Made by a program: the position numbers and the translations under genes
Assembly (NCBI RefSeq): GCF_000621125.1
Contig: NZ_KK211214.1
Coordinates: 933,300 to 997,299, forward strand
Reading direction: 5' to 3'
DNA: 64,000 nucleotides
Source: Maribacter antarcticus DSM 21422
GTDB lineage: Bacteria; Bacteroidota; Bacteroidia; Flavobacteriales; Flavobacteriaceae
Notes under the pieces: model-generated
The model's input: only the letters and a program-made list of their open reading frames with translations
Databases searched by the model: none
What the model was told of the DNA's origin: nothing
Shown here: positions 24,194 to 61,378 of the stretch, piece by piece
Position numbering within the stretch: the first letter of the stretch is position 1
How the letters are laid out: each line of letters begins with the position of its first letter

Positions 24194-24211
24194 GTCCTGC
24201 ACAATACTGCT
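24194..24211 (-). promoter_or_regulatory. ACAGGA-type operator element, copy 6
   Basis: The minus strand reads GCAGTATTGTGCAGGACA. The two GCAG cores start exactly 10 bp apart. This matches half of the four-copy array upstream of susC (ACAGTATTGT then ACAGGATG). It lies 83-100 bp upstream of the minus-strand GH78 start and about 135-152 bp upstream of the plus-strand GH78 start. Confidence 0.6.
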
Positions 24212-24262
24212 ATTTTAAAATAATTAAAGACTCAAAACTGGAAACACGATATAAAACCATAT

Positions 24263-24276
24263 AGTACAGGATACTT
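24263..24276 (+). promoter_or_regulatory. ACAGGA-type operator element, copy 7
   Basis: The plus strand reads AGTACAGGATACTT, identical at its core to the susC-upstream repeat unit. It is a single full core with a partial neighbour (AGT). It sits 70-83 bp upstream of the ATG of the GH78 gene at 24346 and in the same intergenic gap as copy 6, in the opposite orientation. Confidence 0.55.
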
Positions 24277-24345
24277 TTAGATACAAAGGCCGTTATCTTG
24301 CTTTTAACTAATTACTCCTTTTTAAATCACCAAAGTGGAACACCT

Positions 24346-27114
24346 ATGAGCACTAAACTTAGTATTGTTCTTATTGTATTTTTAACAGTTAACTTTTTCT
24401 CTGCTCAAAAAAAGAATTCTAATCAACTTTCAATCCAGGAACTTAGGGTAGAGTACCATAAAAATCCTGAGGGAATTGATGTGATGCAACCTCGATTCAG
24501 TTGGATTTTAAATGGGGAAGGGCGAAATAGGTCGCAATCTGCCTATCAAATTATCGTGGCTTCTTCCGAAGTAAAACTAACAAATAATCAAGGTGATATT
24601 TGGAATAGTGGCAAAGTAAATTCCAAAGCTACCAATCAAATCGAATACAGCGGAAGTTCATTAGAATCAGACACCAAATATTATTGGAAAGCAAAAATAT
24701 GGGACGAGTCTGGGAATGCATCTGAATGGAGCGCACCTGCACATTGGTCAATGGGACTTCTAAATTTTTCAAATTGGAAAGGGATTTTCATAGGCCATGA
24801 TGTGGGGTACAACAAAGTAGATAAATACGATAGTCTTTATCTCCCGCCTGCCAGATATCTGCGCAAGTCTTTCACGTTAGAGAAGAAAATAAAAAAGGCG
24901 ACGGCCTACACCACGGCATTAGGTCTTTATGAATTACGCTTGAACGGAAAGAAAGTCGGGGACGACTATTTTCTGCCGGGATGGACAAATTATAACAAAC
25001 GCTTATACTATCAAACTTTTGATATTACTAAAAGCTTAACAGAAGGCGAGAACGTAATAGGAGCGGTCATTTCCGATGGCTGGTACGCAGGTTATATTGG
25101 TTACGCCCTTCTAGTACGTTTGGATAAGGTGCGCGAATTCTATGGGGTGAACCCCTCGTTTATGGGACAACTACAAATCGACTATGAGGACGGTACTACT
25201 GAAATCATTGCTTCTGATCGTTCTTGGAAATCAAACGAAGGCGCCATACGAGAAGCGGATATTATTATGGGCGAAACCTATGACGCCCGATTGGAAAATT
25301 CAGGTTGGGACACTCCCGATTATGATGACAGCGAATGGAAGAGTCCTAAAGTATATACGTATCCCAATGGAAAATTACAGGCACATCCTGGTACGAAAGT
25401 TAAAAATACAGAGGTTCTAAAACCTATTGCCATGACAGAGCCAAGTCCTGGCACCTATGTTTTTAACCTTGGGAAGAATATTGCCGGTATTGCAGAACTA
25501 AAAGTCAAGGGGCCAAAGGGAACAAGAGTACAGCTTCGATTTGGCGAAATCTTAAAACGTGATGGTCAAATACAGACCGAAAACCTTCGGAAAGCAAGAG
25601 CAACCGATGCTTATACCTTAAAAGGGGAAGGCATTGAAATTTGGCAACCAAAGTTCACCTATCATGGTTTTCAATATGTGGAGGTTACGGGGTATCCTGG
25701 AAAACCTAGCGTGGATGCTATTACCGGAATAGTTTTAAGTTCCATTGAAACTGATGCCAGTACGTTTACTGCTTCCAATCCGATGAACAACACGCTATTT
25801 GAAAATATTAAGACGACACAAAGTGCAAACTTTTTTGAAATTCCGACCGACTGTCCGCAACGCGATGAACGTTTGGGTTGGACGGGTGATGCGCAGGTGT
25901 ATGTGCGCTCCGCCTCCTATAATTCAGATGTAGCTGCTTTTATGACCAAATTCTTGGTTGATTTAGACGATGCGCAACGTTGGTACGGCGCCTATCCTAA
26001 TTTTGCGCCTTTTCCATATTCACGTCCCAATCAATATGCTCCGGCTTGGATGGATGCGGGAATTATAATTCCGTATAACATGTACAAAGTTTATAACGAT
26101 ACACGTGTTTTAGAATATATGTATGAAGGTATGGAAAAGTTTATGGACTTTCAAGAGGATGCTAGTACCGATTATTTGCGACCCGGTGGGGGAAATAATT
26201 GGGGAGATTGGCTTGCGGTTAACGAGGAAACCAGTCATGATTTTATCGGAGCCTCTTTTTACGGTTACGATGCAAAGCTCATGGGAGCGATGGCCAAAGC
26301 GTTAGGAAAAACCGAAGACGCTACCAAGTACAGGAAACTATTTGAAAACATTAAAAAAGCCTTTGCTGAAAAGTATATTTTAGCGGACGGTCGTACCTCA
26401 GAAGACACACAGACAACATATGCCTTAGCGCTATACTTCGACTTATATCCCGATGATTTGGCAAAAAAAGGAGCGGCACGTTTGGCTAAAAAAATAGAGA
26501 AAAACGGATTCAAATTCGCAACTGGCTTTCTTGGAACGAAGCATGTCATGTTGGCCTTATCAAAATATGGCTATGATGATATCTCCTATAAAATTTTCCA
26601 ACAGACCGAATACCCTAGTTGGGGATATTCTGTAGAAAATGGAAGCACTTCTATTTGGGAACGATGGAATAGTTATACTAAGGATGATGCGGCAAATTCC
26701 GATATCAACGCGGCCATGAATTCCTTTAGTCATTATGCTTTTGGTTCGGTTGCCGAATGGATGTTTCAACATGCCGTCGGCATTGATACCCAAGATTCGG
26801 GATATAGAAACATTATAATAAAACCTGCTATCAGCAAAGAAATGGATTTTATAAACGGGAGTTATAAAAGTATCAACGGCACCATAGCATCTGCTTGGAA
26901 TTGGAAGGATAATATGGTACTCATGAATATCGAAATTCCCGTAAATACGAAAGCCAAAGTACATATTCCAACGGGAAAAGTTTCGGACATTAGAGAAGGG
27001 AATAAAAGTATTTCAAAAATTCCTTCTATTACTATTTTGGAATCCAACGAAAAAGAAACCATTCTTGAAATTGGTTCCGGAACATATTCTTTTAGTGCTA
27101 AGTTAGAAAGGTAA
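24346..27114 (+). CDS. GH78 alpha-L-rhamnosidase, full-length multidomain
   Basis: I start this at the ATG at 24346 (MSTKLSIVLIVFL), which gives a clean Sec signal ending FFSAQ; an in-frame TTG at 24298 would bury it. The 922-residue protein has the complete GH78 layout: a fibronectin-like N-terminal domain (IQELRVEYHKNPEGID), the N-terminal sandwich with YELRLNGKKVG and FLPGWTNYNKRLYY, the rhamnosidase sandwich around KVKGPKGTRVQLRFGE, then the (alpha/alpha)6 barrel. DCPQRDERLGWTGD carries D502, D507 and E508, and TSIWERW carries E772. It should release alpha-linked rhamnose in the periplasm. Two ACAGGA elements lie in the divergent promoter region. Confidence 0.93.
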   Translation: MSTKLSIVLIVFLTVNFFSAQKKNSNQLSIQELRVEYHKNPEGIDVMQPRFSWILNGEGRNRSQSAYQIIVASSEVKLTNNQGDIWNSGKVNSKATNQIEYSGSSLESDTKYYWKAKIWDESGNASEWSAPAHWSMGLLNFSNWKGIFIGHDVGYNKVDKYDSLYLPPARYLRKSFTLEKKIKKATAYTTALGLYELRLNGKKVGDDYFLPGWTNYNKRLYYQTFDITKSLTEGENVIGAVISDGWYAGYIGYALLVRLDKVREFYGVNPSFMGQLQIDYEDGTTEIIASDRSWKSNEGAIREADIIMGETYDARLENSGWDTPDYDDSEWKSPKVYTYPNGKLQAHPGTKVKNTEVLKPIAMTEPSPGTYVFNLGKNIAGIAELKVKGPKGTRVQLRFGEILKRDGQIQTENLRKARATDAYTLKGEGIEIWQPKFTYHGFQYVEVTGYPGKPSVDAITGIVLSSIETDASTFTASNPMNNTLFENIKTTQSANFFEIPTDCPQRDERLGWTGDAQVYVRSASYNSDVAAFMTKFLVDLDDAQRWYGAYPNFAPFPYSRPNQYAPAWMDAGIIIPYNMYKVYNDTRVLEYMYEGMEKFMDFQEDASTDYLRPGGGNNWGDWLAVNEETSHDFIGASFYGYDAKLMGAMAKALGKTEDATKYRKLFENIKKAFAEKYILADGRTSEDTQTTYALALYFDLYPDDLAKKGAARLAKKIEKNGFKFATGFLGTKHVMLALSKYGYDDISYKIFQQTEYPSWGYSVENGSTSIWERWNSYTKDDAANSDINAAMNSFSHYAFGSVAEWMFQHAVGIDTQDSGYRNIIIKPAISKEMDFINGSYKSINGTIASAWNWKDNMVLMNIEIPVNTKAKVHIPTGKVSDIREGNKSISKIPSITILESNEKETILEIGSGTYSFSAKLER

Positions 27115-27968
27115 TTATATCAGTAGTTAGTTATTAATTATTTGTTTTATGTCCCATAGGACCTGTTCATTGTAGTAATAAAGTTACTGATAACCCTATT
27201 TTTACTTTGAGACAGTTTTATAATGAAGCAGAACTCGTTAAAATATTCACTGATATTGAAATCGCTTAACTATAATCAGGTTGTTTGTATCTAAAATCCC
27301 AACTGAAGAGTCATGGTATGGAAGTTTGTAAGTTCGCTCAGGTCTTGCTTTCCATCCGGTTTTTTGCGGAAGGTATTAGCATTGAGCCTTTAGTCTTTCC
27401 CTCTTGGACGCTGCCAACCACGTTCTTATCTGTGTATATTATCCCTTATATCGGCTGGACTACCTTATCTCTAGGATAACAAGTAGATGGTCTTCACTAT
27501 CGCACAGTAGAGTGATATTGTACATTTTATTGAAAGGTTCTATATACTACGAGCCATCACGAAGCCAATAAAACTAACTAGCTTACCCCATACATTATCA
27601 TGTGGAAGAAAATGTTAGGAGGACTTATTTTATATAAGAACTCATGTTCTAAAACCTTCGAAAATTTTCTTATACTTGATGGTTTTTCGTTCTTCAAAAA
27701 TTGAAGGTACCGCCAAATATGTTTAGATATAATTAAAAAAATTATGCTATATCACTTAAACTTTACGTGTTGAAATCTATCTTTATACAGTATAGAACAG
27801 GATACCCATACAGGAAAATTTCACTAAGATTGTGTACGAAATTACCTAACTTTTTGACAAAGCTCAAAAATAGGGTTGATTGCTAGTAGTGAAATTCTTG
27901 TTCTTAAAGGTAAAACCTCTTTAATGTTACGTGTAATATTATATCCTAAAATTGAAAAGTGATGTTTT
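27115..27968. other. Long gene-free region with operator copy 8
   Basis: About 850 bp without a supported gene. Short frames (such as 27285-27479) show no family resemblance. The region presumably held a gene or transcript end for the GH78 upstream. The only recognisable element is the ACAGGA repeat near 27785-27815 ahead of the PSCyt gene. Confidence 0.5.
27785..27815 (+). promoter_or_regulatory. ACAGGA-type operator element, copy 8
   Basis: The plus strand reads ACAGTATAGAACAGGATAC (27787-27805). The two ACAG cores start exactly 10 bp apart, and a third ACAGG follows at 27810. It lies about 155-185 bp upstream of the PSCyt/DUF1549 gene and ties that oxidative gene to the rhamnosidase and SusC promoters. 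Confidence 0.55.
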
Positions 27969-30803
27969 ATGGAAGATTTTAATTGGATATTACAACTATT
28001 GGGAAGGTTTCATCCGCTATTGGTTCATTTTCCGATTGGTCTCTTGGTCGTTGCTTTCTTTTTTGAACTGTTGAGCATTGGCGGAAAACGAAAAGGTCTG
28101 AGGCAGGGAACGCATTGGATGCTCTACTTGGGTACCCTGTTCGCAATACTGTCTGCTCTGTTAGGATGGTTGTTGCGCACACAGGAGGATTATACAGGAG
28201 AACTGGTAGATAACCATCAGTACACAGGAATCGCTACTGCGGTTTTTGCACTCGTTACTACACTTTTGCTACTGCAGACGCTAAAGGGAAAATTACCTAA
28301 TTTCTGGGCTTATAGAGTTTCGCTTACTATAACGGTAATATTATTGTCGATTGCAGGCCATTTGGGCTCTTCTTTGACCCACGGCGAAGATTATCTGACC
28401 AATGTCCTGCCGGGTAATCAAGATTCTTATGACAATACAAAAGGTTTGGCCTTGTTGACGGATTTAAAGGCTTCGGATTCTATTACACTTGCCCAACAGG
28501 ATCATTTGAATTTAGAGGTGAGGGCCATTTTTGCCCATAACTGCTATCAATGCCATAATGAGAACAAGCAAAAAGGAGGACTTGTTTTAGATAGTAAGGA
28601 AGGGGTTTTCAAAGGAGGCGAGTCCGGCATGGCGGTAGTTGCAGGAATGATTAACGAAAGTGAATTGTATAGGCGGATAACGTTGTCCCCAAACGACGAT
28701 GAGGTTATGCCAAAAAAAGGGAAGGTGCTAAAAGACAGTGAGATTTCCTTGGTCAAGTTGTGGATAGAAAATGGCGCACATTGGTCGTATAAAGCGGTTA
28801 AAATATTTCCCGAGGCGGAGATGGCGCTTGTAAAACCAGAGCTGCCACAGTCAGAGAAATCCCAACCCGTAGATAAATTGATAGATGCATATTTTGAAAC
28901 GCAAGGTCTTGATTGGTCTTCTGCGGTGGAGGATCGAATTTTTATTAGGCGTGCTTATATGGATGTTATAGGTCTGTTGCCCGAACCTGAGGCTATTGTA
29001 GTATTTCAACAGAATAGGGATACCGACAAAAAGGAAAAACTTATAGATATGCTCTTGGCCGACACGCATAATTATACCCAACATTGGATCAGCTTTTGGA
29101 ACGACCTCCTGCGGAACGATTATAGCGGTACCGGATTTATTACTGGAGGCAGAAAACAGATTACGGATTGGCTCTACAAGGTCTTGGAAGAAAACAAACC
29201 GTACGACGAAATTGTAGCTGAATTGGTCAATCCCGTTAAAGGTTCCGAAGGTTTCATAAAAGGAATAGAATGGCGAGGCGTTGTTAATGCCAGCCAGCGC
29301 ACCGAAATGCAGGCCGCCCAGAATATCGGGCAGTCACTCATGGGGGCGAACGTAAAATGTGCCTCTTGCCATAATAGTTTTGTGAGTAACATGACCTTAG
29401 ATCAAGCCTATGGTTTTGCGACTATTTTTGCTGAGGAGGCGTTAGAACTGAACCGTTGCGATAAACCCATCGGTAAAATGGCCAAAGTAAACTTTCTGTA
29501 TCCTGAATTGGGCAGTATAGCGGGCGATAACGTGCAAGAGCGTTTATTTAACCTTTCTAAGCTGATGGTAAAGCGCGAAAATGGCCGTCTGTACCGTACT
29601 ATTACCAATCGGTTTTGGGACCGTTTAATGGGTAGGGGCATCATAGTACCCTTGGATGAAATGGACAATGTGCCTTGGAGCGGCGAGCTGCTGGATTGGC
29701 TAGCTTCTGATTTTATAGAATCGGGCCATGACCTCAAACATTTGATCAAGCGCATTATGATGTCGAACACCTATCAATTGCCTACCGTGAAATATGGGAA
29801 TAAAGAAGAGCTAAAATCAGAGTATGTATTTGAAGGACCTGTGGTAAGGCGTTTGAGTGCTGAGCAGTTTTCTGATGCAGTAAGCCAAGTTATCTCTCCG
29901 GTATATCATTCGGTAGCATATAATCCTACAGACGAGAAATTACCCATAAAACGAATATGGCATCCGGAAATAAAGTTTGACCGAAGTGTGCTTCCAGAAC
30001 CAGGGAAACGTTATTTCAGGAAAACCATCACGCTTCCCACAACAGCTATACAAGATGCCAACCTTTTGATTTCGGTAGATCATTCCTATGTGCTTTATCT
30101 GAACGGAACCAAAGTATTAGAAGGTTCCAATTGGGAAAAAGTGGGCAAACTGAATGCAACTAAATTTTTGAAACCAGGAGAAAATCTTATCGCGATAGCC
30201 GGCACCAATGAAGGAAGTATTGCCAACCCTGCCGGACTATTGTTTTCTATGAAAGTTGCTTATGACAATGGAGCTATTTCACAAATCGATTCCGATACTA
30301 GTTGGAAGAGTACCGCCGATATTCCCGATTCCAATTGGGCTTCTAAGGATTATAAGGATACCGAATGGAACACTGTCCGGAATTATGGTACTTCCAATTG
30401 GGGCAGATTAATTAATTTTAGCTTTGAAGACCAAAATGGGTCTTTTGCAAGGGCAAGTCTCGTAAAGCAGCATCCGTTTATGAAAGCACTGGGAAGACCT
30501 AGTCGTGAAAACGTGACCACGTCCAGGGATGATCAGGCTACCTTGTTACAGGCCTTGGAATTGACCAACGGCAAATTTTTTAACGGAGTTTTGGCGGAAG
30601 GGGCAACCCTTTGGATAGATCGTTATGGGAACGATAGTAAGAAATTAGTGGAGCGGTTATACCAAAAATCCTTGGGTAGAAATCCCTCGGAAGAGGAACG
30701 GGAAATCTTGTTGAGCGTCTTGGGCGACAAACCAAAACCAGAAGACGTACAGGATGTATTTTGGTCGACTCTGATGTTGCCCGAATTTCAGTTTATTAAC
30801 TAG
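27969..30803 (+). CDS. PSCyt1/DUF1549/DUF1553 multihaem-type protein with N-terminal membrane domain
   Basis: This 944-residue protein begins with four hydrophobic segments (about 10-150; HPLLVHFPIGLLVVAFF), like the DUF2231 membrane domain. A cytochrome-c-like PSCyt1 segment has CYQCH at residues 192-196. DUF1549 follows (about 300-470; RIFIRRAYMDVIGLLPEP) with a second CASCH at 464-468. DUF1553 forms the C-terminal half (LYRTITNRFWDRLMGRG; SLGRNPSEEEREILL). A galactose-binding-like jelly roll seems inserted at about 665-820 (YFRKTITLP, YVLYLNGTKVLEG). This architecture is typical of Planctomycetes and some Bacteroidota, always next to DUF1501, as here. The role is probably extracytoplasmic oxidation of a carbohydrate. 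The exact reaction is unknown. Confidence 0.88.
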   Translation: MEDFNWILQLLGRFHPLLVHFPIGLLVVAFFFELLSIGGKRKGLRQGTHWMLYLGTLFAILSALLGWLLRTQEDYTGELVDNHQYTGIATAVFALVTTLLLLQTLKGKLPNFWAYRVSLTITVILLSIAGHLGSSLTHGEDYLTNVLPGNQDSYDNTKGLALLTDLKASDSITLAQQDHLNLEVRAIFAHNCYQCHNENKQKGGLVLDSKEGVFKGGESGMAVVAGMINESELYRRITLSPNDDEVMPKKGKVLKDSEISLVKLWIENGAHWSYKAVKIFPEAEMALVKPELPQSEKSQPVDKLIDAYFETQGLDWSSAVEDRIFIRRAYMDVIGLLPEPEAIVVFQQNRDTDKKEKLIDMLLADTHNYTQHWISFWNDLLRNDYSGTGFITGGRKQITDWLYKVLEENKPYDEIVAELVNPVKGSEGFIKGIEWRGVVNASQRTEMQAAQNIGQSLMGANVKCASCHNSFVSNMTLDQAYGFATIFAEEALELNRCDKPIGKMAKVNFLYPELGSIAGDNVQERLFNLSKLMVKRENGRLYRTITNRFWDRLMGRGIIVPLDEMDNVPWSGELLDWLASDFIESGHDLKHLIKRIMMSNTYQLPTVKYGNKEELKSEYVFEGPVVRRLSAEQFSDAVSQVISPVYHSVAYNPTDEKLPIKRIWHPEIKFDRSVLPEPGKRYFRKTITLPTTAIQDANLLISVDHSYVLYLNGTKVLEGSNWEKVGKLNATKFLKPGENLIAIAGTNEGSIANPAGLLFSMKVAYDNGAISQIDSDTSWKSTADIPDSNWASKDYKDTEWNTVRNYGTSNWGRLINFSFEDQNGSFARASLVKQHPFMKALGRPSRENVTTSRDDQATLLQALELTNGKFFNGVLAEGATLWIDRYGNDSKKLVERLYQKSLGRNPSEEEREILLSVLGDKPKPEDVQDVFWSTLMLPEFQFIN

Positions 30804-31100
30804 TTTGTTGTAAAATAATTTATAGTGATTTAGAAAAAATAGTATAGTAGTCTTAAGGATTAAATTTTTATTGGACTCTCACATCTAGCGCAGTCGAGAT
30901 GTTTTGATTAGGCGCTCATTGTTTTAACCTGAGCGTAGGCATTGAGGAAAGTAGAAATGCAGTTTACGGGTAATACAAGATTTCGTCCAAGCTTTAAGAA
31001 GCGTTGCTTAGGAGCTTGAAAAAGTATAATAATTTAGCTCTTTTAAATAGCGAACTAGAGAACGAATATAGTGGCAAGCGAATGTAAAAAAGTAAAAGTA

Positions 31101-32561
31101 ATGGACAAGCAAAATACAAGACGGGAATTTATTAAAAAAATGTCGGCTGCAAGTTTGGGAGCTTCCACGGCCACAATTCCATTAACCAGTTTCTTAAGTT
31201 CCTGCACGCCAGAAGTTGCGAAACTAGCTTCCACGGCAGACACCGTGATTCTTCTTTGGATGGCGGGTGGTATGGCACACACAGAAACCTTTGATCCTAA
31301 GGCCTACGTGCCTTATGAAAAAGGGGTGGAAAGTAAAAGAGTGCTCAGTACCTTCCCTAAAATACCTACGGTAGTAGACGGACTCGATTTCTCTAAGGGA
31401 CTGGAGTCTATTGCCGGAGTAATGGATAAGGGCGCTATTATCCGTTCCTATAAATCCGCCGACTTGGGACATATTTTGCATACAAGACATCAATACCATT
31501 GGCATACTTGCTACGAACCGCCACAATCGGTTCAGGCGCCACATATCGGCGCATGGATTGCAAAGGAATTGGGACCTTCCAATCCTGTGATTCCACCTTT
31601 TATCAGTATGGGGCAACGTTTCACGGTGGGGGAAGCTGAAGAGTTGAAAGCGTTTCATTCTGCAGGATTCTTGGGATCCGAGTTCGGTCCGTTTCTGATT
31701 CCCGACCCCTCGGGCGGACTCGAAAGTGTGCGTCCGCCCCAAGGCATGTCGCTAAAAAGATTCGAGGCGCGCTATAAGTTGTACAAAGAGTTGGCCAATA
31801 AGAATAAGCTCATGGAAGAAGGGAGTGATTACCAGCGGGAGTCGCTTATGCGTTCCATGGAGCAGTCGTACCGTTTGTTGAATTCCCCCGAGGCAAAGGT
31901 ATTCGATTTGTCACAAGAACCCAAAGAAGTCTATGATACCTATAATACTGGCAGATTTGGTCTAGGTTGTTTATTAGCAAAGCGGTTGGCCATGAATGGT
32001 GGACGGTTTATCAGCGTTTCAACTGAATATGAACCATTTTTAGGTTGGGATACCCACGAAAATGGCCATACTAGAGCCAAGAAAATGAAGGAATTGATTG
32101 ATAGACCCATCGCCCAACTGATAAAAGATTTGGAAGAAAGCGGCCATTTGGACAGAACCTTGATTGTTTTAGCCAGCGAATTCAGTCGCGACGCCATAAT
32201 GGAAGGGAGACCTGGTGAACAAGTACAAGACCAAGTGAACCAACCGGATATTATAGAGGATGAAAAGTTCTACGGTATGCACCGCCATTTTACCGATGGC
32301 AGCTCCATATTGATGTGGGGCGGCGGTGTCGAGAAAGGTTTGGTTTACGGGAAAACAGCCGATGAGCGGCCTTGTTCTTCCATAGAAAATCCCGTGGTCA
32401 TCGATCAGGTACATCAATCCATATACCACGCATTGGGTATTCATCCCCAAACGGAGTATACCATTGAAGGGCGACCTTTTTACACTACGCCCGATGGCCA
32501 CGGAGAACCTATTTTAGATTTGTTCGGTAAACCATTTAATAAGGCTACGAAAACAAATTAG
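31101..32561 (+). CDS. DUF1501 family protein, Tat-exported
   Basis: This protein of about 486 residues has an alkaline-phosphatase/sulfatase-like fold. The Tat signal NTRREFIKKMSAASLGAS follows the ATG at 31101, which I prefer over the in-frame GTG at 31071. It contains VILLWMAGGMAHTETFDPK, HTRHQYHWHTCY, ETHENGH-like WDTHENGHTRAKKM and VLASEFSR, all usual DUF1501 motifs. Family members almost always pair with a DUF1549/DUF1553 gene; here that partner ends 298 bp upstream on the same strand. The biochemical role is not established, but the pairing suggests a joint extracytoplasmic complex. Confidence 0.9.
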   Translation: MDKQNTRREFIKKMSAASLGASTATIPLTSFLSSCTPEVAKLASTADTVILLWMAGGMAHTETFDPKAYVPYEKGVESKRVLSTFPKIPTVVDGLDFSKGLESIAGVMDKGAIIRSYKSADLGHILHTRHQYHWHTCYEPPQSVQAPHIGAWIAKELGPSNPVIPPFISMGQRFTVGEAEELKAFHSAGFLGSEFGPFLIPDPSGGLESVRPPQGMSLKRFEARYKLYKELANKNKLMEEGSDYQRESLMRSMEQSYRLLNSPEAKVFDLSQEPKEVYDTYNTGRFGLGCLLAKRLAMNGGRFISVSTEYEPFLGWDTHENGHTRAKKMKELIDRPIAQLIKDLEESGHLDRTLIVLASEFSRDAIMEGRPGEQVQDQVNQPDIIEDEKFYGMHRHFTDGSSILMWGGGVEKGLVYGKTADERPCSSIENPVVIDQVHQSIYHALGIHPQTEYTIEGRPFYTTPDGHGEPILDLFGKPFNKATKTN

Positions 32562-34500: not shown

Positions 34501-34815
34501 TTATTCCATATAAAATACTTCTTTCAGAGTAAGAAACACCGGCGAATTGTCCGGATTTGTTTCCATAAGGTCTGCCATGTAGGCCCACCATTTTTTGACT
34601 ATGTGATTTTCTGCCAAATCTTGGGAAGAGGCATCGCCAGATAGTTTTTGAAAGGCAAAAAGTGTGTGGGTCTCTTCGTCTAAAAAAATCGAATATTCGC
34701 TTACACCAGACTCTTTGAGCAGCAATTTTAACTCGGGCCACAACTCCTTATGCCTTTTGGTGTAGGCTTCCTCTTGACCAGGATTTAATTTCATTTTAAA
34801 GGCTAATCGTTGCAT
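34501..34815 (-). CDS. rhaM: L-rhamnose mutarotase
   Basis: This 104-residue dimeric ferredoxin-like enzyme interconverts alpha- and beta-L-rhamnose, feeding the isomerase with the right anomer. It matches RhaM along its full length: QRLAFKMKLNPGQEEAY, H22 in KRHKELWPEL at the position of the catalytic His of E. coli RhaM, FAFQKLSGD, and KKWWAYMADLM with the paired Trp residues. It lies 83 bp after a Tat-exported Gfo/Idh gene on the same strand, and the other rhamnose genes are at the right end of the window. A frame on the same strand at 34469-34741 is a shadow. Confidence 0.93.
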   Translation of the reverse strand: MQRLAFKMKLNPGQEEAYTKRHKELWPELKLLLKESGVSEYSIFLDEETHTLFAFQKLSGDASSQDLAENHIVKKWWAYMADLMETNPDNSPVFLTLKEVFYME

Positions 34816-41018: not shown

Positions 41019-41134
41019 ATTTACACATTTGTTAGTTAACAGGTTGGATTCAATTAGCCTTTTATTCCATAAGATGAAAGTATAAATCAATTGAAAAATA
41101 CACAATCAAACATAGGTTTTAGCTTGAAATAACC

Positions 41135-48530: not shown

Positions 48531-49334
48531 CTATAGATTTTTCAACCTAATATTTCTATATTCGATTTTCATGGGCGGTCCAACATGTACTTGTACGCCC
48601 AAATGTCCTTTGAGTTTTCTGTTTATCATATCGTTATCCGTTACATCGCTCATTAGAATATCATTTACATAGTGTTGAAGTCGGTTGCCGTTGATGACCA
48701 AATGAACTTCGTTCCAATCTTCACTTTTTATTTTTGTTTTCAGGGAATCGGATACCCCAAGGCTACCGGTAATTATTCTGCTTTGCCAGCAGTTTTTTAG
48801 TACGTTGGACTTTAGCGATCCCGGAGCCTCGGGTTTATCTTGACTATTGATGATCACTTTTTCACCTCGATAGGCCAAGGTCGCCCTTTTTCTCTCCTCG
48901 TAGTTTTGTCCTGTGTATCTGATTTTCCCGTCTATATCGGCTTGATAGCCTCTTAAAGCATTGGGGATGCTATCAATGACCTCACTTCGGTAATTGATTC
49001 CGCTGTTGCCGGCCTCGGTAATCCTGAATTCAAGTTTTAGTTCGAAATCATCGGGTTGGTCTCCTTGCCAAACCATGAAAGTGTTTGATTTTAAAAGAGT
49101 TTCAGGGGTTACCTCACCCACTAAATTACCATTTTCTACTCGCCAATAGTTAGAGTCACCTTTCCATTCGGACAGGGTTTTCCCGTCAAAAATTTGTTTA
49201 AAATCATCAGCTTCCAAAATTGTTTCCACTGTTTTCTGGGCAGTGTCGTTGGTCTTTTCTTCCTTGCAGGAAGCTATGCCTGTTACTATGAAAAGTACTA
49301 CCGGCATAGCGATAAAAATACGTTTTAGTTTCAT
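48531..49334 (-). CDS. DUF1080 protein (3-keto-disaccharide hydrolase-type), lipoprotein
   Basis: This 267-residue protein has a lipoprotein signal ending IASC. The concanavalin-like DUF1080 domain covers about 45-267, with FKQIFDGKTLSEWKGD, YWRVENGNLVGE, FELKLEFRITEAGNSGINYRS and GHLGVQVHVGPPMKIEYRNI. Members of this family act on glycosides after C3 oxidation, cleaving 3-keto-glycosides by elimination or hydration. Here it sits 15 bp downstream of an FG-GAP protein and two genes after a propeller/cytochrome dehydrogenase, so oxidation and cleavage could occur together in the periplasm. Confidence 0.9.
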   Translation of the reverse strand: MKLKRIFIAMPVVLFIVTGIASCKEEKTNDTAQKTVETILEADDFKQIFDGKTLSEWKGDSNYWRVENGNLVGEVTPETLLKSNTFMVWQGDQPDDFELKLEFRITEAGNSGINYRSEVIDSIPNALRGYQADIDGKIRYTGQNYEERKRATLAYRGEKVIINSQDKPEAPGSLKSNVLKNCWQSRIITGSLGVSDSLKTKIKSEDWNEVHLVINGNRLQHYVNDILMSDVTDNDMINRKLKGHLGVQVHVGPPMKIEYRNIRLKNL

Positions 49335-53377: not shown

Positions 53378-54871
53378 CTAAAAATTAGGATTAAATTCTG
53401 ATTCGCCTGCGGGCAATGCATAACGCTCCCTAATATTGGTAAAAGCATTTCCCGCAGCTTCTACCCCTACTGGGAAATAATAAGCATTAGGATTGTTTAT
53501 GACCCTATCACCAAATTCTGTCATGACCTGAATAGCTTGTCCTGTTCTTACTAAATCAAACCAACGCTTGTTCTCGAAAGCCAGTTCTACTCGTCTTTCC
53601 CTAAAAATCGCATCCCCTAGATCTCCAGTATGTGCTCCTAATCCTGCCCGGGTTCTAACTTGAGTAAGATAAGGGAGTGCCTCACCGCCTTTACCTTGCT
53701 CTTCTAAGGCTTCAGCCAAAAATAATAAAACTTCTGAATATCGATACACAGGAAAGTTCATACCATGGTTGTTATGCAAGGCATGTGGCTCTACAAACTT
53801 CTTGATAATAGGATAAACCCCATCGTTCCAAAAACTTTCCCTGGTCAAAACATACATGATAGAGGCATCCTCTCTTAAATCACCCTCTTCATAGGCTTCA
53901 ATAATGTCTGGGGTTGGAATATTATTTCCCTGCCCGTTAATAGGTTGCGCATCGGGTGTGCCGAATAGTAATGCAAGTTCATCTGCCTCTATGGGACGGG
54001 GAAGAAAATTATACATGAAATTTCCCTGAACTCCTTCTGCACCCTCTCTATACTGCACTTCAAAGACGGACTCCATGTTGTTCTTATTATCGCTATTGCC
54101 GGTAAAGGCATCCTCATAATTAGGCATTAGCATATATTCTCCGCTGCCCACTACAGACTTCAACAATGCTTCAGCAGCCTCCCATTCTTCTAGCACCATA
54201 TGAACATTTGCCAAAAGTGTTTGTGCTGCTCCCGAAGTTACCCTACCAGGTTGTTGGTCTGATTTAAGTGGTAATAAGGGAATAGCTGCCAGCGCGTCAG
54301 CTACGATTTGTCCGTAAAGAACGTCTTCTGAAGTAAGGGGCAAGGCGGCTCCTTCTCGGTCTAACACAGGTTCTAAATGCATGGGCACCGACTCATATAA
54401 TTGAACTAGGTCAAAATAGGCAAATGCCCTTAAAAAAAGTGCCTGACCTTTTACATTGGCTTTTACGGCAGCGTCTATTTCGGCATCGTCTATCGTTACC
54501 AAAATTTGATTTGACCTTGCAATGATGGCATATAAAGTCCTGTAGTAGTTCGTAACATTTCCATTGGGTGTAATACCGCCTTGGGTAATCATCGAATGAT
54601 CGGCAATATCTTGATTTGTTTCTGTCGCTCCAAAAGCCGTGTTTCTTGCAAAATAGGTGTTGTCCGCACTCATTTCGGTCATAAACGGTTTCGTTGAATT
54701 GTAGAGTGACCTCAAGGGTTCGTAATTAGCATTTACCGCTTGTGTAAAATCATCTTCCGTATTAAAGAAGGTCGGTACACTTAAAGAATCTTCGGGAAAG
54801 ACGTTTAGTTCGTCTTCACAGCTCATTGCAATAAAGCAGATAAGACCAAGAAATAAGATTATTTTTTTCAT
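53378..54871 (-). CDS. SusD-like starch-binding lipoprotein
   Basis: This 497-residue SusD/RagB-family protein has a lipoprotein signal with C18 in IAMSCEDELN. It binds glycan at the cell surface and lids the SusC channel. The family N-terminus is FFNTEDDFTQAVNANYEPLR. GQALFLRAFAYFDLVQLYESVP is the TPR core, and FPVYRYSEVLLFLAEALEEQG with RRVELAFENKRWFDLVRTG is the conserved C-terminal part. It follows SusC by 29 bp. Sequence alone does not tell the ligand; neighbouring enzymes suggest rhamnose-rich, probably sulfated oligosaccharide. Confidence 0.95.
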   Translation of the reverse strand: MKKIILFLGLICFIAMSCEDELNVFPEDSLSVPTFFNTEDDFTQAVNANYEPLRSLYNSTKPFMTEMSADNTYFARNTAFGATETNQDIADHSMITQGGITPNGNVTNYYRTLYAIIARSNQILVTIDDAEIDAAVKANVKGQALFLRAFAYFDLVQLYESVPMHLEPVLDREGAALPLTSEDVLYGQIVADALAAIPLLPLKSDQQPGRVTSGAAQTLLANVHMVLEEWEAAEALLKSVVGSGEYMLMPNYEDAFTGNSDNKNNMESVFEVQYREGAEGVQGNFMYNFLPRPIEADELALLFGTPDAQPINGQGNNIPTPDIIEAYEEGDLREDASIMYVLTRESFWNDGVYPIIKKFVEPHALHNNHGMNFPVYRYSEVLLFLAEALEEQGKGGEALPYLTQVRTRAGLGAHTGDLGDAIFRERRVELAFENKRWFDLVRTGQAIQVMTEFGDRVINNPNAYYFPVGVEAAGNAFTNIRERYALPAGESEFNPNF

Positions 54872-54900: not shown

Positions 54901-57900
54901 TTAAAAGTTAAGGTTTACACCAATATTGATAATACGTGGTATCGGATACCCTGAGAGATCTACTCCGGGCGCTAAATTTCCTCCATCGCCTTGTCCGTTA
55001 TTTTGAACGCTTATTTCTGGGTTTGGTCCCCCCCAGTATTTTGTAAATATGTGTACGTTTTGAATAGAACCATAGATACGTGCCGATTTAAAATATTTCT
55101 CCAATCCTGGTAGTGTATATCCTAAGGTAATATTTCTAATATTGAAAAAAGAGGCATCTGCAACAAAACGATCGTTTACCCAATCCCTTTCTATACCGGT
55201 AACTCTACCTCCACCTACTGTGGTGCCATAAAAACCATCCCCAGGATTTTCTACAGACCTAAAACGATTTTCTACATCTTTCAAAAGATTAAAAACCCCA
55301 TCTAGGTTGGTAGTACTGAACAAGTGGCGTACCAAAACCTCGTTACCTTGTGATCCTGTAGCGATGACTGAAAAATCCCAGTTGTCGTAGGTAATCCTAT
55401 TGGTGATACCATATGTAAAGTCAGGAAACGGATTACCCGTGATTGCTCGATCATCATCAAGACCTCCTCGGGTTATTACGCCATCGCCATTAACATCTAT
55501 AAGTTTGATACTACCAACCGTAGAACGGCCGGGTACTTGTGGCGAACTATCCAAATCTGCTTGATTTAAATAATTGCCGTCCGATAAATGCCCATAAAAT
55601 TGAGCAAAAGGCTGCCCTACTTGTGTTATATGTAAATTACCGGGTCCAAATACCTGGTCTATGCCCTCGGCCAATGCTACCACTTCATTTCTATTGAACG
55701 AAATGTTGGCATTCGTGGTCCATTTGAATCTTCCTGTGGTGTTTACCGTATTCAATGAAAATTCATGACCCCAGAAACGAAGTTCTCCAATGTTATCACT
55801 AAAGTTGGAAAAACCGGATTCTCTAGGCACTTGAATGTTGAACAATAGATTGGTCGTATTCTTAGTGTAATAATCATAGATAAAAGATACCCTATCCTTA
55901 AAAAGGCTTAAATCGAGACCAATATCAAATTGTTCGGTTGTTTCCCATCCTAAATTAGGGTTGGATAATGAGTTTACTGCTGACCCTGGTGCAAATGTAT
56001 CACCAAAGACCGCGGGAACGTTGTTATCAACTAAAGCATATTGGGTATAGTTACCAATATTTTGATTACCGGTAACGCCCCAACTTCCGCGTATTTTCAA
56101 TAGCGAAATAGCTTCTGCATTTTCCAAAAACGATTCATCGGAAGCTATCCAACCACCTGAAACGGAAGGGAAGGTACCCCATCTGTTTTCAGAACCAAAT
56201 CTGGAAGAACCATCGGTACGTATCGATCCAGTTAACAAGTACTTTCCTTTGTAGTTGTATGTTAATCCGGCAACTCCAGAAACCAACGTGCTTTCTTGTA
56301 CTTCATCAAAAGTACCTCCCCGATCGATATTTATAGCACCTTGTATAACCGGCAATCTATCGTCTGGAAAATCGGTAGCTCGAATTCTGGTTCTATCTAT
56401 TCTGAATTGTTGGTATGAAAAAACACCTAAAACGGAGAAATTATGATTTCCAATAGAGTTAGTATAGGTAGCGATATTTTCATTTAACCAATTAAATTCA
56501 TCTCTATTGTTCCAAATAGCTTCGTTGTTCGTAGGTATGGGGCGGTTGATTCTATTAGTAGCATTCGTTGGACTAAAGAATTCGGTGTTCCTTTGGTAGA
56601 ACTCGGCATTTATGCTAGATTTAATACTCAGCCCTTTAATAGGTTTCCAATCGACATAAGCATTGGAAACTAAATTAAGGTCTCTGTCCTCATTTTTTAT
56701 TCGCTCCGCCGAATTCAACCAGTTGGCGTAAGCGAATATGTTTCCAGTATCTGCCGGAAACCTATTAAATTCAGTCCTAGTCCCATCAGCATTGTTGATA
56801 GGCATTATAGGCCATGTGTGCAAGGCGTTGAACAAGATACCTGTTCCTCTACTACCATCAGTTGCTGGGTCATTTCTTACAACCCAACTAGGGGCAATAT
56901 TTACGCCTATCTCTACTTTGTCGTTCGGGTTAAAGGCCATATTGGCCCGTAAGGTAACTTGCTGAAAGTCACTTCCTAAAACTACACCATCTTGGTTTGT
57001 TAAACCGGCAACGAGTGAAGCACGAAATTTTTCCGAACCGCCAGATACCGACAGGTTATATATGGATATTGGTGCTGTACGAAGCATGGCATCATACCAA
57101 TCGTTCGTTTGACCTTCATATTGCGATGGGTTTTGAAAAATATCTGGAACCGGGTCACCCTGATCCTGATAGTATTCTTGTTTAAACTGGGCAAATTCAA
57201 CAGCATCCATCATTTCTACTCTACCACGTTGTGGAACACTTTGGAGACCTGTAGACATGTTGAAGCTCACGTTGGTCTTGCCTATCTTACCCTGTTTCGT
57301 GGTAATCAATACGACCCCGTTGGCAGCCCTAGAACCGTACAAAGAAGTAGATGCTGCATCTTTTAGGACGGTTAAAGTTTCAATTTCTGCTGGATTTATG
57401 TTATTTAGATTACCTGCAATTGGAAATCCATCCACTACATATAACGGTTCGCTACCGCCTGAAACCGATAATTGCCCCCTTATACGGATGTTCAGACCCT
57501 CACCAGGCGTACCTGTGGTCTGGTTAATTTGAACACCTGCCAGTTGTCCTTGTAGTTTTTGACCAACTTGCGTTACCGGAATATCAGACAGCTCGGTAAG
57601 GTTTACTGTCTGTACAGATCCCGTAACCTCTCTTTTAATTTGTGTACCATAACCTACAAGGATTACTTCATCAAGCGATGTGGCATCTTCGGTCATACTT
57701 GCATCTACTTGGTTTTGCCCTTTTATTGTGATTTCCTGTGTGGTAAAACCAATATAAGAAAATACCAAGGTTGCATTTGAGTTTGCTACAATACTATAGT
57801 TACCATCAAAATCCGTTACGGCACCTTGTGTCGTGCCTTTGACTAAAACGTTTACCCCTGGTAGCGCTTGACCATCTTCTATGGAAGTTACAGTACCTGT

Positions 57901-57993
57901 CACAGTAGCATCTTGTGCATGGGTGCTAAAACTCCATAAAAAGACTAAAACCAAGAGAAATCTCGGAGAAATCATATTTAATTTTTTTTTCAT
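54901..57993 (-). CDS. SusC-like TonB-dependent outer-membrane transporter
   Basis: This 1030-residue SusC/RagA protein has a Sec signal ending STHAQ. A carboxypeptidase-regulatory-like domain (about 28-105: VTGTVTSIEDGQALPGVNVLVKG) precedes the TonB region and the plug (SLDEVILVGYGTQ; TPGEGLNIRIRGQLS; LYVVDGFPIAGN; NPAEIETLTVLKDAASTSLYG). The barrel ends IGVNLNF. It imports oligosaccharide with SusD. The four-unit ACAGGA array lies 98-136 bp upstream. There is no anti-sigma or HTCS gene adjacent, so control probably comes from the operator-binding regulator. Confidence 0.96.
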   Translation of the reverse strand: MKKKLNMISPRFLLVLVFLWSFSTHAQDATVTGTVTSIEDGQALPGVNVLVKGTTQGAVTDFDGNYSIVANSNATLVFSYIGFTTQEITIKGQNQVDASMTEDATSLDEVILVGYGTQIKREVTGSVQTVNLTELSDIPVTQVGQKLQGQLAGVQINQTTGTPGEGLNIRIRGQLSVSGGSEPLYVVDGFPIAGNLNNINPAEIETLTVLKDAASTSLYGSRAANGVVLITTKQGKIGKTNVSFNMSTGLQSVPQRGRVEMMDAVEFAQFKQEYYQDQGDPVPDIFQNPSQYEGQTNDWYDAMLRTAPISIYNLSVSGGSEKFRASLVAGLTNQDGVVLGSDFQQVTLRANMAFNPNDKVEIGVNIAPSWVVRNDPATDGSRGTGILFNALHTWPIMPINNADGTRTEFNRFPADTGNIFAYANWLNSAERIKNEDRDLNLVSNAYVDWKPIKGLSIKSSINAEFYQRNTEFFSPTNATNRINRPIPTNNEAIWNNRDEFNWLNENIATYTNSIGNHNFSVLGVFSYQQFRIDRTRIRATDFPDDRLPVIQGAINIDRGGTFDEVQESTLVSGVAGLTYNYKGKYLLTGSIRTDGSSRFGSENRWGTFPSVSGGWIASDESFLENAEAISLLKIRGSWGVTGNQNIGNYTQYALVDNNVPAVFGDTFAPGSAVNSLSNPNLGWETTEQFDIGLDLSLFKDRVSFIYDYYTKNTTNLLFNIQVPRESGFSNFSDNIGELRFWGHEFSLNTVNTTGRFKWTTNANISFNRNEVVALAEGIDQVFGPGNLHITQVGQPFAQFYGHLSDGNYLNQADLDSSPQVPGRSTVGSIKLIDVNGDGVITRGGLDDDRAITGNPFPDFTYGITNRITYDNWDFSVIATGSQGNEVLVRHLFSTTNLDGVFNLLKDVENRFRSVENPGDGFYGTTVGGGRVTGIERDWVNDRFVADASFFNIRNITLGYTLPGLEKYFKSARIYGSIQNVHIFTKYWGGPNPEISVQNNGQGDGGNLAPGVDLSGYPIPRIINIGVNLNF

Positions 57994-58090
57994 AATCTGG
58001 AATTATTAATTAGTTAGTTCTGCGGTATTCTTAATTGTTTAACTTACATATTAAGAACATCATAAAATTATTGTAAGATTATTGATTGGG

Positions 58091-58129
58091 CATCCTGTAC
58101 AATACTGTGCTGTCCTGTACTATCCTGTT
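58091..58129 (-). promoter_or_regulatory. Four-unit ACAGGA array, copy 1 (susC promoter)
   Basis: The plus strand has CCTGT, ACTGT, CCTGT and CCTGT starting at 58094, 58104, 58114 and 58124: four units exactly 10 bp apart. On the minus strand the units read ACAGGATAGT, ACAGGACAGC, ACAGTATTGT, ACAGGATG. The array is 98-136 bp upstream of the SusC ATG. It is the longest copy and contains the sequences of most other copies, so it looks like the reference site of a regulon. Confidence 0.68.
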
Positions 58130-58130
58130 A

Positions 58131-58554: not shown

Positions 58555-59860
58555 CTAATAGCATGTCTTTTTAGGGTACGAGTTTTGAACGTTTTCACAG
58601 TCAGTAATTAAAGGCTTAATACGTTCTCGATCAAGAGAATTAGTTTGGGCAATGGTTTTTGAATCGTAACCTGCACCCTCTAAAATAGTAAGATGAATAT
58701 CCGTGTAGTCTATTGGGATATCTACCCATTGAACTTCTTTGATTTTTCCTTTCCAACGAACTATAAGTGGCAACCGTATACCACCTTCTGTCAAACAAGC
58801 TTTACCACCTAAAAATGGACCATTGTCACTGCCATCTCCTCTTGGTTTTATTTTTGAATCGATTCCTCCGTTATCCGCCATAAATACGGCCAATGTATTT
58901 TCTTCCAATCCTATTTCTTTTACTTACTCAAGTATTTTGCCTAAAAAGCAATCCATACTTTTTATCATGGAGGCAGATACCGGGTCTTTGTGGTCGTTCC
59001 AACCTTTGTAAGTTTTATGCCCAAAATAGGCTAGCTCATCCTCTTTTCCTTGATAAGGAGAATGAACAACAAAGTTTAAAAAATAGAGAAAAGAAGGGGG
59101 TATCTTTTGTTTTAAATTTTTATTAATGAAATTGAGCGCCTTAACCGTCAAGTCATCCATTAGATACACTTGTTTCGTTTTTTGACCTGAGTGGCCTATT
59201 GTAGAAGATTCCTGCGGTATCTTGGGGAATCTGTTCTTGGCCTTATTGTCCCATCATTCTTTCCAATTATAATATGCCGATTTACCGGCATCGAACAAGG
59301 CTAAAGGTTTAAAGCTTTAGTCGGCCGGTTGGTATCCCTCGGTACCGAAACCACCGATATGCTACTTACTGATAAATACAGAATGATAGTCTTTTAAAGC
59401 TTCGGCAATAGAAAGTTCGTCTCTGCTCGTATCATAAGTTGCTGCTGAAGGTACGGTAGAGTTGGATGTGCCATTAATCAAAGCTTGTTTGATTAGAATA
59501 TTGTTTTTAACTCCGGAATATCGTGCGCACAATTGCCCTCAGGAATAGTCATGTTTTGGTTGTAAGAAGTTTTAGGTGGCATTGCGGTCGTGAACCCCAA
59601 TCTGCTCGGGTACTTTCCTGTCATAATGCCAGCAAGGTTGGGAGAGCATAATTGATTTGCATAGGCTTGGAAGAATGCAACCCCTTCCGGAATCAATTGA
59701 TGTATGTTCGGTGTTTCATAAAACATCACCTAAGTTTTGCGCAGAAAACTTGGGAGCATAGGCCCTACTGTCCATAATACCGTAATCCTCCACTAAAACA
59801 AAAATGATGTTTGGCCTTATTGGCTGCTTTATTTCGGTATTGATTTTTCTTTTTCAGATT
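58555..59860 (-). pseudogene. S1 sulfatase pseudogene
   Basis: Pieces in three frames follow sulfatase order. First QPIRPNIIFVLVEDYGIMD and YAPKFSAQNLGDVL (about 59840-59730), then FYETPNIHQLIPEGVAFF, ANQLCSPNLAGIMTGKYPSRLGF, NQNMTIPEG, later INKNLKQKIPPSFLYFLNFVVHSPY, and finally AVFMADNGGIDSK and LTEGGIRLPLIVRWKGK. The active-site motif reads CSPNLAG, so the arginine that should follow the cysteine by four has become Leu. Frame changes near 59730, 59490-59170 and 58920 break it. It was probably a member of the SusC locus. Confidence 0.85.
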
Positions 59861-60202
59861 TACCTATTATAAAAACAAGCGTGAAGGGCATAGGAGGATA
59901 ATTATTGACCGAACTTTCATGTTTACGGAGCATAATTTGGAAACTAGTTAGTGTGCTTTGAAAGGTTTGCATAGTAGAAAACCGCAAGCATAATTAAAAA
60001 ATGAAACCTCGAAATAGCCAATGAGTATACCTCCACGGCGATTAAGATTAACTAATTTTTGAATATAGGAATGCCTTTCAATAACCATTTTACTGTATGC
60101 TGATTGAAAGTGGACACAGTCGCGCAATCTACTTTTTAAAACTTAAAAGGATACAAGTGCAACATGGAAGAAATATGTATTGTTATGAAAATTCGGAACA
60201 GC
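59861..60202. other. Gene-free spacer upstream of sulfatase relic
   Basis: About 340 bp with no supported gene. It lies between the broken sulfatase and the end of the GntR gene, both on the minus strand. No ACAGGA element is seen, which fits a dead promoter. Confidence 0.45.
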
Positions 60203-61249
60203 TTAGATAGAATTTCTATCGATAAAATTGAAAGGGTTCTTGATTTTCCCCTTCTCTTTATTCATAATCATATGAGCTGCGTTTTCACCCATTGCTTTAA
60301 AATCAGTTGAGATACAAGTAATACCTAATAGTTGTTTCAAAGGAGTGTCATTATAAGAAATAACGCCAATATCATCGCCCAATATGAACTCTTGATTGCG
60401 AATTTGATTGACTAGATTAACCAAGTCAGATTCACTAATGGTTATAAATAAATCGCCTTTTCTTAGAATAATATCATCGTAAAGTTCTTCTAAAACTTCG
60501 AAATCTATACGGTGTTCGATACAAAATTTTCGAAACCCATGGAGTATTCTTTTAGGATAAGGATATACTGAACTTTCTGGATATGCTATAATTAATTTAT
60601 CATATTTCGAAATTTTTGCGAGACCTTTTTGCAGGGCATCGTAGATATCATTTTCAAAATCTTGGTATATTTCGATAAGTGCATTGTTTACTTCAGGAAT
60701 ACGGTTATCCATTACTACCAATCTATCCCTTGGTATTTTTTTTATTGCTTTAAGCACATTTGGGGTAATGCTGACATGCTTTAATTTATCTGTCTTAAAA
60801 TGGGGCATAATTACATAATAATCATAAGCTCCCATATTTTTATCAAGTAGATTGAGGAAAAGCTCTTCTTCACAATGGTAAATATGAAGATCGGTATGTG
60901 ATGTTCCTATAAAACTATTGACGAATGAATTATAGATTCGCATCTTGTAGGAACTTAATTTATTAATCAAGAAGAGAATATTTACTTTAGAAATCAATTT
61001 GGTACGCGCAATATAATACCCTTTTCCTCTTATGGATAGGATGACTTTCCGTTCTTTTAAAATATTATATGCCTTTTCAACCGTATCTCTTGAGAGAAGA
61101 TATTCCTCACTAAATAGATTTATAGATGGTATCTTATCATCCATTTTTAAGTTTCCAGAGGAGATATTATGAATAATACCGTCTACAATTTGCTTGTATT
61201 TTGGCACCCTTGAATCCTCGTTTATTTTTATGAAATTAAATATATCCAT
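60203..61249 (-). CDS. GntR-family regulator with LacI-type sensor domain (rhamnose regulator candidate)
   Basis: This 348-residue protein has a winged helix at about 15-80 (VPKYKQIVDGIIHNISSGNL, KIPSINLFSEEYLLSRDTVEKAY, SIRGKGYYIA) followed by a periplasmic-binding-like domain (KVNILFLINKLSSY, YDYYVIMPHF, LVVMDNRIPEVN, DDIGVISYNDTPLKQLLGI). This is the AraR-type arrangement used for sugar repressors. It diverges from rhaEW across 180 bp that contain operator copy 2, so it most likely controls the rhamnose genes and itself. Whether it binds the ACAGGA element elsewhere is inference. Confidence 0.88.
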   Translation of the reverse strand: MDIFNFIKINEDSRVPKYKQIVDGIIHNISSGNLKMDDKIPSINLFSEEYLLSRDTVEKAYNILKERKVILSIRGKGYYIARTKLISKVNILFLINKLSSYKMRIYNSFVNSFIGTSHTDLHIYHCEEELFLNLLDKNMGAYDYYVIMPHFKTDKLKHVSITPNVLKAIKKIPRDRLVVMDNRIPEVNNALIEIYQDFENDIYDALQKGLAKISKYDKLIIAYPESSVYPYPKRILHGFRKFCIEHRIDFEVLEELYDDIILRKGDLFITISESDLVNLVNQIRNQEFILGDDIGVISYNDTPLKQLLGITCISTDFKAMGENAAHMIMNKEKGKIKNPFNFIDRNSI

Positions 61250-61362
61250 TTAGTAGTATCTTCACTTTTTTACAATTTATATTTTAAATACAAAACTATT
61301 GTGGTGTACATATGATACAATGAAGAAGTCAAATGTAAACAATTTTATTTTTGACATGAACG

Positions 61363-61378
61363 GTACAGTACAGGACAG
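61363..61378 (+). promoter_or_regulatory. ACAGGA-type operator element, copy 2 (gntR/rhaEW)
   Basis: The plus strand reads GTACAGTACAGGACAG. ACAG cores begin at 61365, 61370 and 61375, so a 10-bp pair with a half-turn copy. Its last 12 bases match the susC array. It is 52-67 bp upstream of the rhaEW ATG and 114-129 bp upstream of the gntR start, linking the sugar regulator and the catabolic genes to the glycan-degradation promoters. Confidence 0.6.

Follow-up and report, generated by a model that had tools for sequence, protein, structure and literature searches.

Most of the GntR-family proteins that have been studied outside the MocR group are repressors, and the half-sites of AraR of Bacillus subtilis form a palindrome. 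AraR consists of a GntR winged helix and a LacI-type domain, and the operator typical of the GntR family is a palindrome with GT and AC boxes (PMC4494728). Direct repeats are on record as well, since NanR of Escherichia coli, a GntR/FadR protein, binds tandem GGTATA direct repeats cooperatively with its dimers about half a turn apart (PMC8012715), and the MocR regulators GabR, PdxR and TauR, in which the GntR winged helix is joined to a flexible linker, use direct repeats, often in a divergent arrangement and with activation (PMC5320631). Moreover, XylRA of strain EA2 is an activator with a direct-repeat motif (PMC12125979).

The DNA analysed here, a stretch of 64,000 nucleotides of Maribacter antarcticus DSM 21422 referred to as the window, carries a promoter-associated direct repeat together with a gntR gene. 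Neither such an operator nor a GntR-type regulator of rhamnose or ulvan genes in flavobacteria was found in the accessible part of the open literature, which mostly leaves subscription journals outside; nor did it show a regulator of any kind with an operator for the ulvan and rhamnan loci of marine flavobacteria. On the sequence comparisons given below, it is probable that a GntR-LacI chimera, bound to repeats arranged head to tail where the −33 element would be, activates genes for rhamnose and for ulvan and rhamnan.

Proposed operator sites in the window

Eight intergenic places with cores starting exactly 10 bp apart had been described in the initial annotation. A PWM was trained on nine strict sites, found in other genomes at 7 of 29 loci with GntR homologues, and the window was excluded. 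Over the whole window it gave 11 overlapping matches at a score of at least 8, all at seven of the eight places (61358, 58089-58130, 27785, 24191, 24254, 41133 and 43461), but it missed the degenerate eighth at 41784. The exact spacing stands as a general 10-bp repeat, but the copies at 61363 are 5 bp apart. The regions ahead of uxaA, the 356 operon and the GH78 gene at 16924, for which sites had been denied, contained no PWM match at a score of at least 8.

The operator facing rhaEW (61430-63535, +) is GAACGGTACAGTACAGGACAGA at 61358-61379 (+); it scores 25.4 with the PWM and is centred 62 bp from the start of rhaEW, and the −7 box TAATTTAG at 61398-61405 (+) lies 18 bp past it. Four CAGKA cores spaced 10 bp apart at 58089-58130 (−), of which 58089-58110 is the promoter-proximal 22-mer, face susC (54901-57993, −; susD next at 53378-54871), and the −7 box of this promoter is TAATTTTA at 58063-58070 (−). 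Further operators face the GH78 gene 22351-24111 (24191-24212, −; −7 box TATTTTTA at 24165-24172), the PSCyt/PSD1 gene 27969-30803 (27785-27806, +; TAAGATTG at 27825-27832) and the sulfatase-GH78 fusion 37506-41105 (41133-41154, −; TATGTTTG at 41107-41114). The site facing the GH78 gene 24298-27114 had been taken for a lone core at 24263; it has two boxes, the first of them weak, at 24254-24275 (+), with a TA at +18 and the −7 box TATCTTGC (4/6) at 24294-24301. At the GH78 gene (24298) and at the sulfatase-GH78 fusion (41105), the mechanically assigned TTG start overlaps the predicted transcription start or comes before it, and the true start codons are therefore probably further downstream.

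Two places had been assigned to the wrong gene. The 41784 site, said to lie ahead of a sulfatase, is a decayed three-copy array (41784-41809, −) with TA at +17 in place of +18, and it actually precedes a broken reading frame, presumably kduI/D-like when judged by eye. The 43462 site, assigned to the kduI relic, occupies 43461-43482 (+) with the −7 box TAATATTA (4/6) at 43501-43508; it is 136 bp from the start of the sulfatase gene 41865-43325 but directed away from it. It faces no gene seen and opens a small-RNA-like element, and the interval up to the next gene end (43588) showed no gene-like frame. Signs of decay were noted in the broken frame itself (41150-41700, −), in a 172-aa GH88 match that spans roughly half of the profile (36391-36909, −) and in a sulfatase match of 117 aa (58555-58908, −).

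The strict pattern RCAGKA-N4-RCAGKA has five matches in the window, where 0.04 would be expected from 100 dinucleotide shuffles, and nine in the whole 4.85-Mb genome (G000), five of which are those of the window; the reversed-pattern control gave two. A sequence-only model with all seven window places in its training set gave its eight top matches in the genome (E 0.0018 to 0.08) at these same seven places, followed by a match at E 0.31, so that the strong sites of the genome are confined to this locus; due to this overlap with the training set, the PWM scan is the cleaner test. The two-mismatch pattern, with 46 matches in the window against 30.9 by chance and with 3 of 100 shuffles reaching 46, was rejected as evidence because its count is near chance. 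A chance origin of the repeats in AT-rich intergenic DNA could point to this loose count and to the weak 41784 array, but the strict-pattern excess, the PWM from other genomes, the genome ranking, the fixed spacing to the −7 box and the link to GntR described below speak against it. It is refuted for seven of the eight sites, and its overall probability is negligible.

Sequence of the proposed operator and promoter geometry

The consensus of the operator is RCAGKA-YAGT-ACAGGATAG, a direct repeat with a 10-bp period. Oriented sites were collected from the window and its relatives (95, or 94 after removal of a duplicate), from loci picked by GntR homology or model matches with no random draw. 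The core over the 94 distinct sites reads C-A-G-K-A-Y-A-G-T-A-C-A-G-G-A-T-A-G, and the C, A and G of the second box are invariant. The log-odds columns correlate at 0.82 for a shift of 10 and 0.35 for a shift of 5, the N4 spacer itself being partly repeated, and at 0.34 for the best inverted arrangement; the operator is therefore a direct repeat of 10-bp period with a fainter echo at half a turn, and not a palindrome. A palindrome reading was rejected on the inverted value, and the operator thus departs both from the palindrome of the AraR subfamily and from the typical GntR-family form with GT and AC boxes, GTAC being common in the sites and not invariant.

The initial annotation had overlooked that the motif is directional and lies a fixed 18 bp from a −7 box. 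Bacteroidota promoters have the consensus TTTG at −33 and TANNTTTG at −7. A TA was found at +18 past the 22-mer in 80 of the 94 sites, and a TANNTTTG-like box with at least five of the six fixed bases at this offset in 72; elsewhere between −30 and +59 the count never exceeded 7 at a single offset. In the window, TA stands at +18 in each of the seven good sites, and in five of them the box matches at 5/6 or better. A co-directional gene start lies within 300 bp of 86 of the 94 sites, 64 of which are without an opposing start; the remainder have an opposing start only (4), neither (2), or are inside genes (2).

Counting back from the −7 box of these predicted promoters, the second CAGGA sits at the position of the −33 element, which is the fixed location over the −33/−35 element expected of a class II activator. 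With a spacer of N17-23 to the −7 box, TTG occurred in 0 of 72 motif promoters versus 9 of 41 control boxes from motif-free upstream regions, a comparison that is partly circular because the motif itself occupies these columns. The rigid distance would also fit a CAGGA box that is recognized as a −35 element by an alternative sigma factor, but the −7 box is of the ordinary Bacteroidota form, a second copy 10 bp upstream would be unexpected for such an element, and the association with GntR would go unexplained, so that this reading is highly improbable.

The same geometry bears on the direction of control. A third copy of YAGKA, matching in at least 4 of the 5 bases, lies upstream in 9 of 72 promoters and downstream in 1 of 72. 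Activation is favoured because of the rigid spacing, the single orientation, the missing −33 word and the extension in the upstream direction only. The same GntR protein could instead act on the same operator as a repressor that covers the −33 region and is freed by rhamnose or a pathway intermediate. Repression is the usual role in the GntR family, and the site overlaps the core promoter. The flavobacterial GntR protein AusR, which represses alginate genes (PMC8286568), likewise favours repression. A repressor, however, would need neither exact spacing nor a single orientation, and it would not account for the absence of TTG at the −33 place or for extra copies that lie upstream with none over the start; repression is therefore considered rather unlikely, and activation the more probable of the two.

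The proposed regulator and its distribution

The proposed binder is the GntR-LacI chimeric regulator encoded at 60203-61249 (−), with the helix SRDTVEKAY (E58, K59). A Pfam match to GntR (PF00392; 3.9e-10, 39.7 bits, cut-off 27) places it among the winged-helix proteins of the GntR superfamily, and a match to Peripla_BP_3 (1.1e-5, 26.0 bits) falls just below the cut-off of 26.5. Foldseek with the AlphaFold model (pLDDT 89.3) gave LacI, CcpA and RbsR as top matches, LacI and CcpA at E about 1e-13. The borderline Peripla_BP_3 match and the Foldseek result indicate a LacI/GalR-type effector domain like that of the AraR subfamily, and in the model the protein is of AraR architecture, with a GntR winged helix and a LacI-type domain. 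Tandem gntR paralogue pairs, 61-72% identical to the protein of the window, were seen in several relatives (G070:C8 12854-15055, G163:C5 185815-188091 and G132:C7 348238-350475).

In order to follow site and regulator across the family, the composite pattern CAGKA-N5-CAGGA-N22-TANNTT was searched in 299 genomes; it was found in 64, with a total of 10 matches for the reversed controls, and a GntR orthologue (E<1e-80) was found in 62. The composite promoter was present in 59 of the 62 genomes with the orthologue and in 5 of the 237 without it, these five having one match each. The cut-off was chosen after the matches were known, and at E<1e-100 the counts are 57/60 and 7/239. The Fisher value of the association is 1.5e-52, which overstates independence as the genomes are related. 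Some of the 59 genomes have a single composite match, that of G075 being on a contig other than that of gntR, and the location of the match in G020 is absent from the site listing. Of the three orthologue carriers without the composite, G190 and G256 have a CGG-variant site adjoining gntR, and G271, which is 76% complete, has no site in 7 kb. As a control for lifestyle, 70 genomes with rhaEW were compared: the composite occurred in 59 of 61 with GntR and in 1 of 9 without it (G249), so that the association cannot be put down to rhaEW alone.

The sequence model agrees with this distribution. A match at E<0.01 was obtained in 14 of 14 genomes with a GntR protein at least 53% identical, and none of eight GntR-free genomes reached 0.1; of the two genomes with a 42%-identical protein, G064 did and G020 did not (best E 0.57), and no site with a score of at least 13 lies between gntR and rhaEW of G020. 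Among GntR loci outside the training set, 18 of 21 have a site and 17 have TA at +18, and the loci of GntR proteins with other helices (L028-L039) have a site in 0 of 12. In named genomes, some of them of the same species as the G genomes, a site was found in 65 of 80 GntR loci and TA at +18 in 61, three Lewinella/Neolewinella loci being included; 15 of the 80, several of them from Flavobacterium, are without a site at a score of 18. Carriers of the orthologue include Zobellia, Maribacter, Arenibacter, Algibacter, Flavobacterium, Nonlabens ulvanivorans and Lewinella-type bacteria.

The initial annotation had offered an AraC/HTCS-type site as one reading, in which an AraC-type or hybrid two-component regulator encoded elsewhere would bind the repeats and gntR would be a mere neighbour. 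The class II position and the direct repeats would suit AraC proteins, the AraC-type RhaR of Bacteroides has a predicted 21-bp period (PMC3870299, PMC3878776), and an AraC gene is located about 10 kb downstream of rhaEW, outside the window (L040, 11970-12821). The period here, however, is 10 and not 21, no AraC/HTCS match was obtained in the 39 of 45 window ORFs that were scanned (six short ones were left out), the presence of the site tracks the GntR orthologue across the 299 genomes, and helix and site co-vary as described below. An AraC-type binder is therefore quite improbable, and the GntR protein of 60203-61249 is very probably what binds the repeats. The view that the sites form one regulon, that their direct repeats are phased and that a protein probably binds them cooperatively is, in contrast, upheld. 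A small protein with a cyclic-nucleotide-binding domain (10784-11353, −) was noted as a possible second regulator.

In the alignment, all 38 of 38 proteins at E<1e-80 share the helix SR[DN]T[VI]EKAY, including the 42%-identical proteins of G064 and G020. A sister clade of 11 proteins, about 40% identical, has SRDTV[LIM][MT]AF, and CTRGTAGGNNCTRGTAGG-like 10-bp repeats are found at 10 of its 11 loci, the eleventh of which starts at its gntR gene; a −7 box follows these repeats by 16 to 21 bp in nine of the ten loci, with none found in one. This clade (L028, L030-L039) thus has an operator-like CTRGTAGGNNCTRGTAGG of its own adjoining the gene, in which the direct repeat again has a period of 10 bp and a −7 box is close by. 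The third clade (G037, G108, G222 and G247), with VVKAY or IVRAY, is encoded near rhaEW, and CAGAA-type repeats with TA at +18 lie by gntR or rhaEW in three of its four loci. Residue 58 appears to vary with the fourth box base, E with G, V with A, and L, I or M with T, as judged from these three clades. One exception is G024, with SRVTIEKGY, in which E58 is kept and the motif is missing. The idea that the CAGAA composite marks the third clade across whole genomes was rejected, as this composite was present in 2 of 4 genomes of the clade versus 5 of 28.

Regulon content and a small-RNA-like element

Here the predicted regulon comprises the rhaEW-rhaI-rhaB-lldD-469aa run, which begins with rhaEW and extends beyond the window (L040), as well as susCD, the sulfatase-GH78 gene, two GH78 genes, the PSCyt gene, the relic and the small-RNA-like element. 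Among 83 genes downstream of sites, those of the window included, were 13 rhaEW, 12 susC and 7 sulfatase-GH78 genes, so that sites stand ahead of rhamnose catabolic genes as in a RhaR-type regulon. Forty downstream genes were without a panel match. Thirty of these were sent to Pfam, which returned PL28 ulvan lyase, ulvan-lyase trefoil domains, GH106, GH88, GH31, GH39 and glucuronate isomerase, a few off-theme families, e.g. fructose bisphosphatase and an O-antigen ligase-type protein, and no family for 3 of the 30. Taken together, these genes make ulvan and related rhamnose polymers the probable targets. The rhaM gene for rhamnose mutarotase (34501-34815, −) has no site directly ahead of it; the sulfatase-GH78 gene lies upstream of it in the same orientation. 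Additionally, the regulon contains cytochrome genes of the planctomycete type (PSCyt/PSD1, PVC-type heme) as well as an enzyme of the 3-keto-sugar type (27969-30803, 31071-32561, 50639-53332 and 48531-49334), and genes of both kinds recur in the regulon of at least one other genome each (L043, L111, L143).

The small-RNA-like element (43509-43585, +) has a possible 5′ hairpin, UUGAGUUAGUUU (with GAGTTAG at 43535-43541) and a terminator-like hairpin at 43547-43577; the 5′ hairpin is missing from the predicted fold of the window copy. The order under the regulon promoter, UUUGAGUUAGUY and then the terminator-like hairpin, recurs so that it follows 8 of 220 sites, that of the window included (the others being L122 (11187), L129 (4136), L143, L303, L304, L327 and L329), with GAGTTAG at position 45-66. 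Of these, L122, L129 and L143 were unselected, and L303, L304, L327 and L329 came only from a search with a pattern that contains GAGTTAG. In 62 genomes this search listed 31 matches in 22 genomes, versus 11 for the reversed control, and many resemble coding DNA. The eight were retained at a site score of at least 18 and position 45-66; L301 and L307, which are similar and have no scored site, and L109 (position 157) were left out. Rfam gave no family at the gathering score in the window and four weak sub-threshold matches in nine loci. Since a long reading frame begins shortly after the element in four of the eight (L143, L303, L327 and L329), attenuation is a possible alternative to a small RNA. 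A possible pairing of UUGAGUUAGUU with susC leaders was considered by eye.

Proposed mechanism and comparison with known systems

In the proposed mechanism, the operator is embedded in the promoter and would be read by the GntR-family protein of 60203-61249, which probably senses the rhamnose pathway through its LacI-type sugar-binding domain. At least two DNA-binding domains would lie head to tail on the CAGKA-N5-CAGGA repeats along one face of the helix, with additional repeat copies extending the array upstream. The promoter-proximal CAGGA, 22 bp before the TA of the TANNTTTG −7 box, would substitute for the −33 element, and the ligand-bound protein most likely aids RNA polymerase at promoters that are without the −33 TTG. 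Rhamnose catabolism, transport, rhamnosidases and sulfatases would in this way be turned on jointly.

More tentatively, the class II GntR-LacI activator and its −33-replacing repeats may form a portable, rigid regulator-promoter module, in which one cytosolic deoxysugar sensor runs ulvan and rhamnan loci across many genera, residue 58 retunes the site (E for CAGGA, V for CAGAA, and L, I or M for TAGTA) and a small RNA with a conserved UUUGAGUUAGU before its terminator is driven as well. Seaweed-polysaccharide genes may then be switched as one set by a rhamnose-type regulator. The base-exact composite pattern allows the regulon to be listed in any Bacteroidota genome and told apart from loci that other regulators control. 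GntR clades in which helix and repeats have changed provide a natural series on the reading of direct repeats by a winged helix.

The effector domain of NanR is of another type, and that of the MocR regulators is aminotransferase-like, whereas a LacI-type domain is found here. NanR, moreover, recognizes a different repeat as a repressor, whereas the present operator has a rigid spacing to the −7 box and the −33 position; NanR and the MocR regulators are both precedents for the proposed GntR mechanism on direct repeats. The LacI-type sugar domain is joined to a non-LacI DNA-binding domain also in XylR of E. coli and in XylRA (PMC12125979), but there the DNA-binding domain is of the AraC type and here of the GntR type. 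FucR and ManR of Bacteroides are likewise described as GntR regulators of monosaccharide use, but the FucR regulon is a single operon and RhaR of Bacteroides is an AraC protein (PMC3878776). AusR of Zobellia galactanivorans is a flavobacterial GntR protein for polysaccharide genes like the present one, but it represses the alginate genes (PMC8286568). AraR of B. subtilis, the DNA-binding domain of which (4egy) is among the PDB sequence matches of the GntR protein, shares with it the domain architecture and the control of sugar catabolism (PMC4494728). In place of the AraR palindrome, however, the operator described here consists of 10-bp direct repeats with no inverted symmetry.
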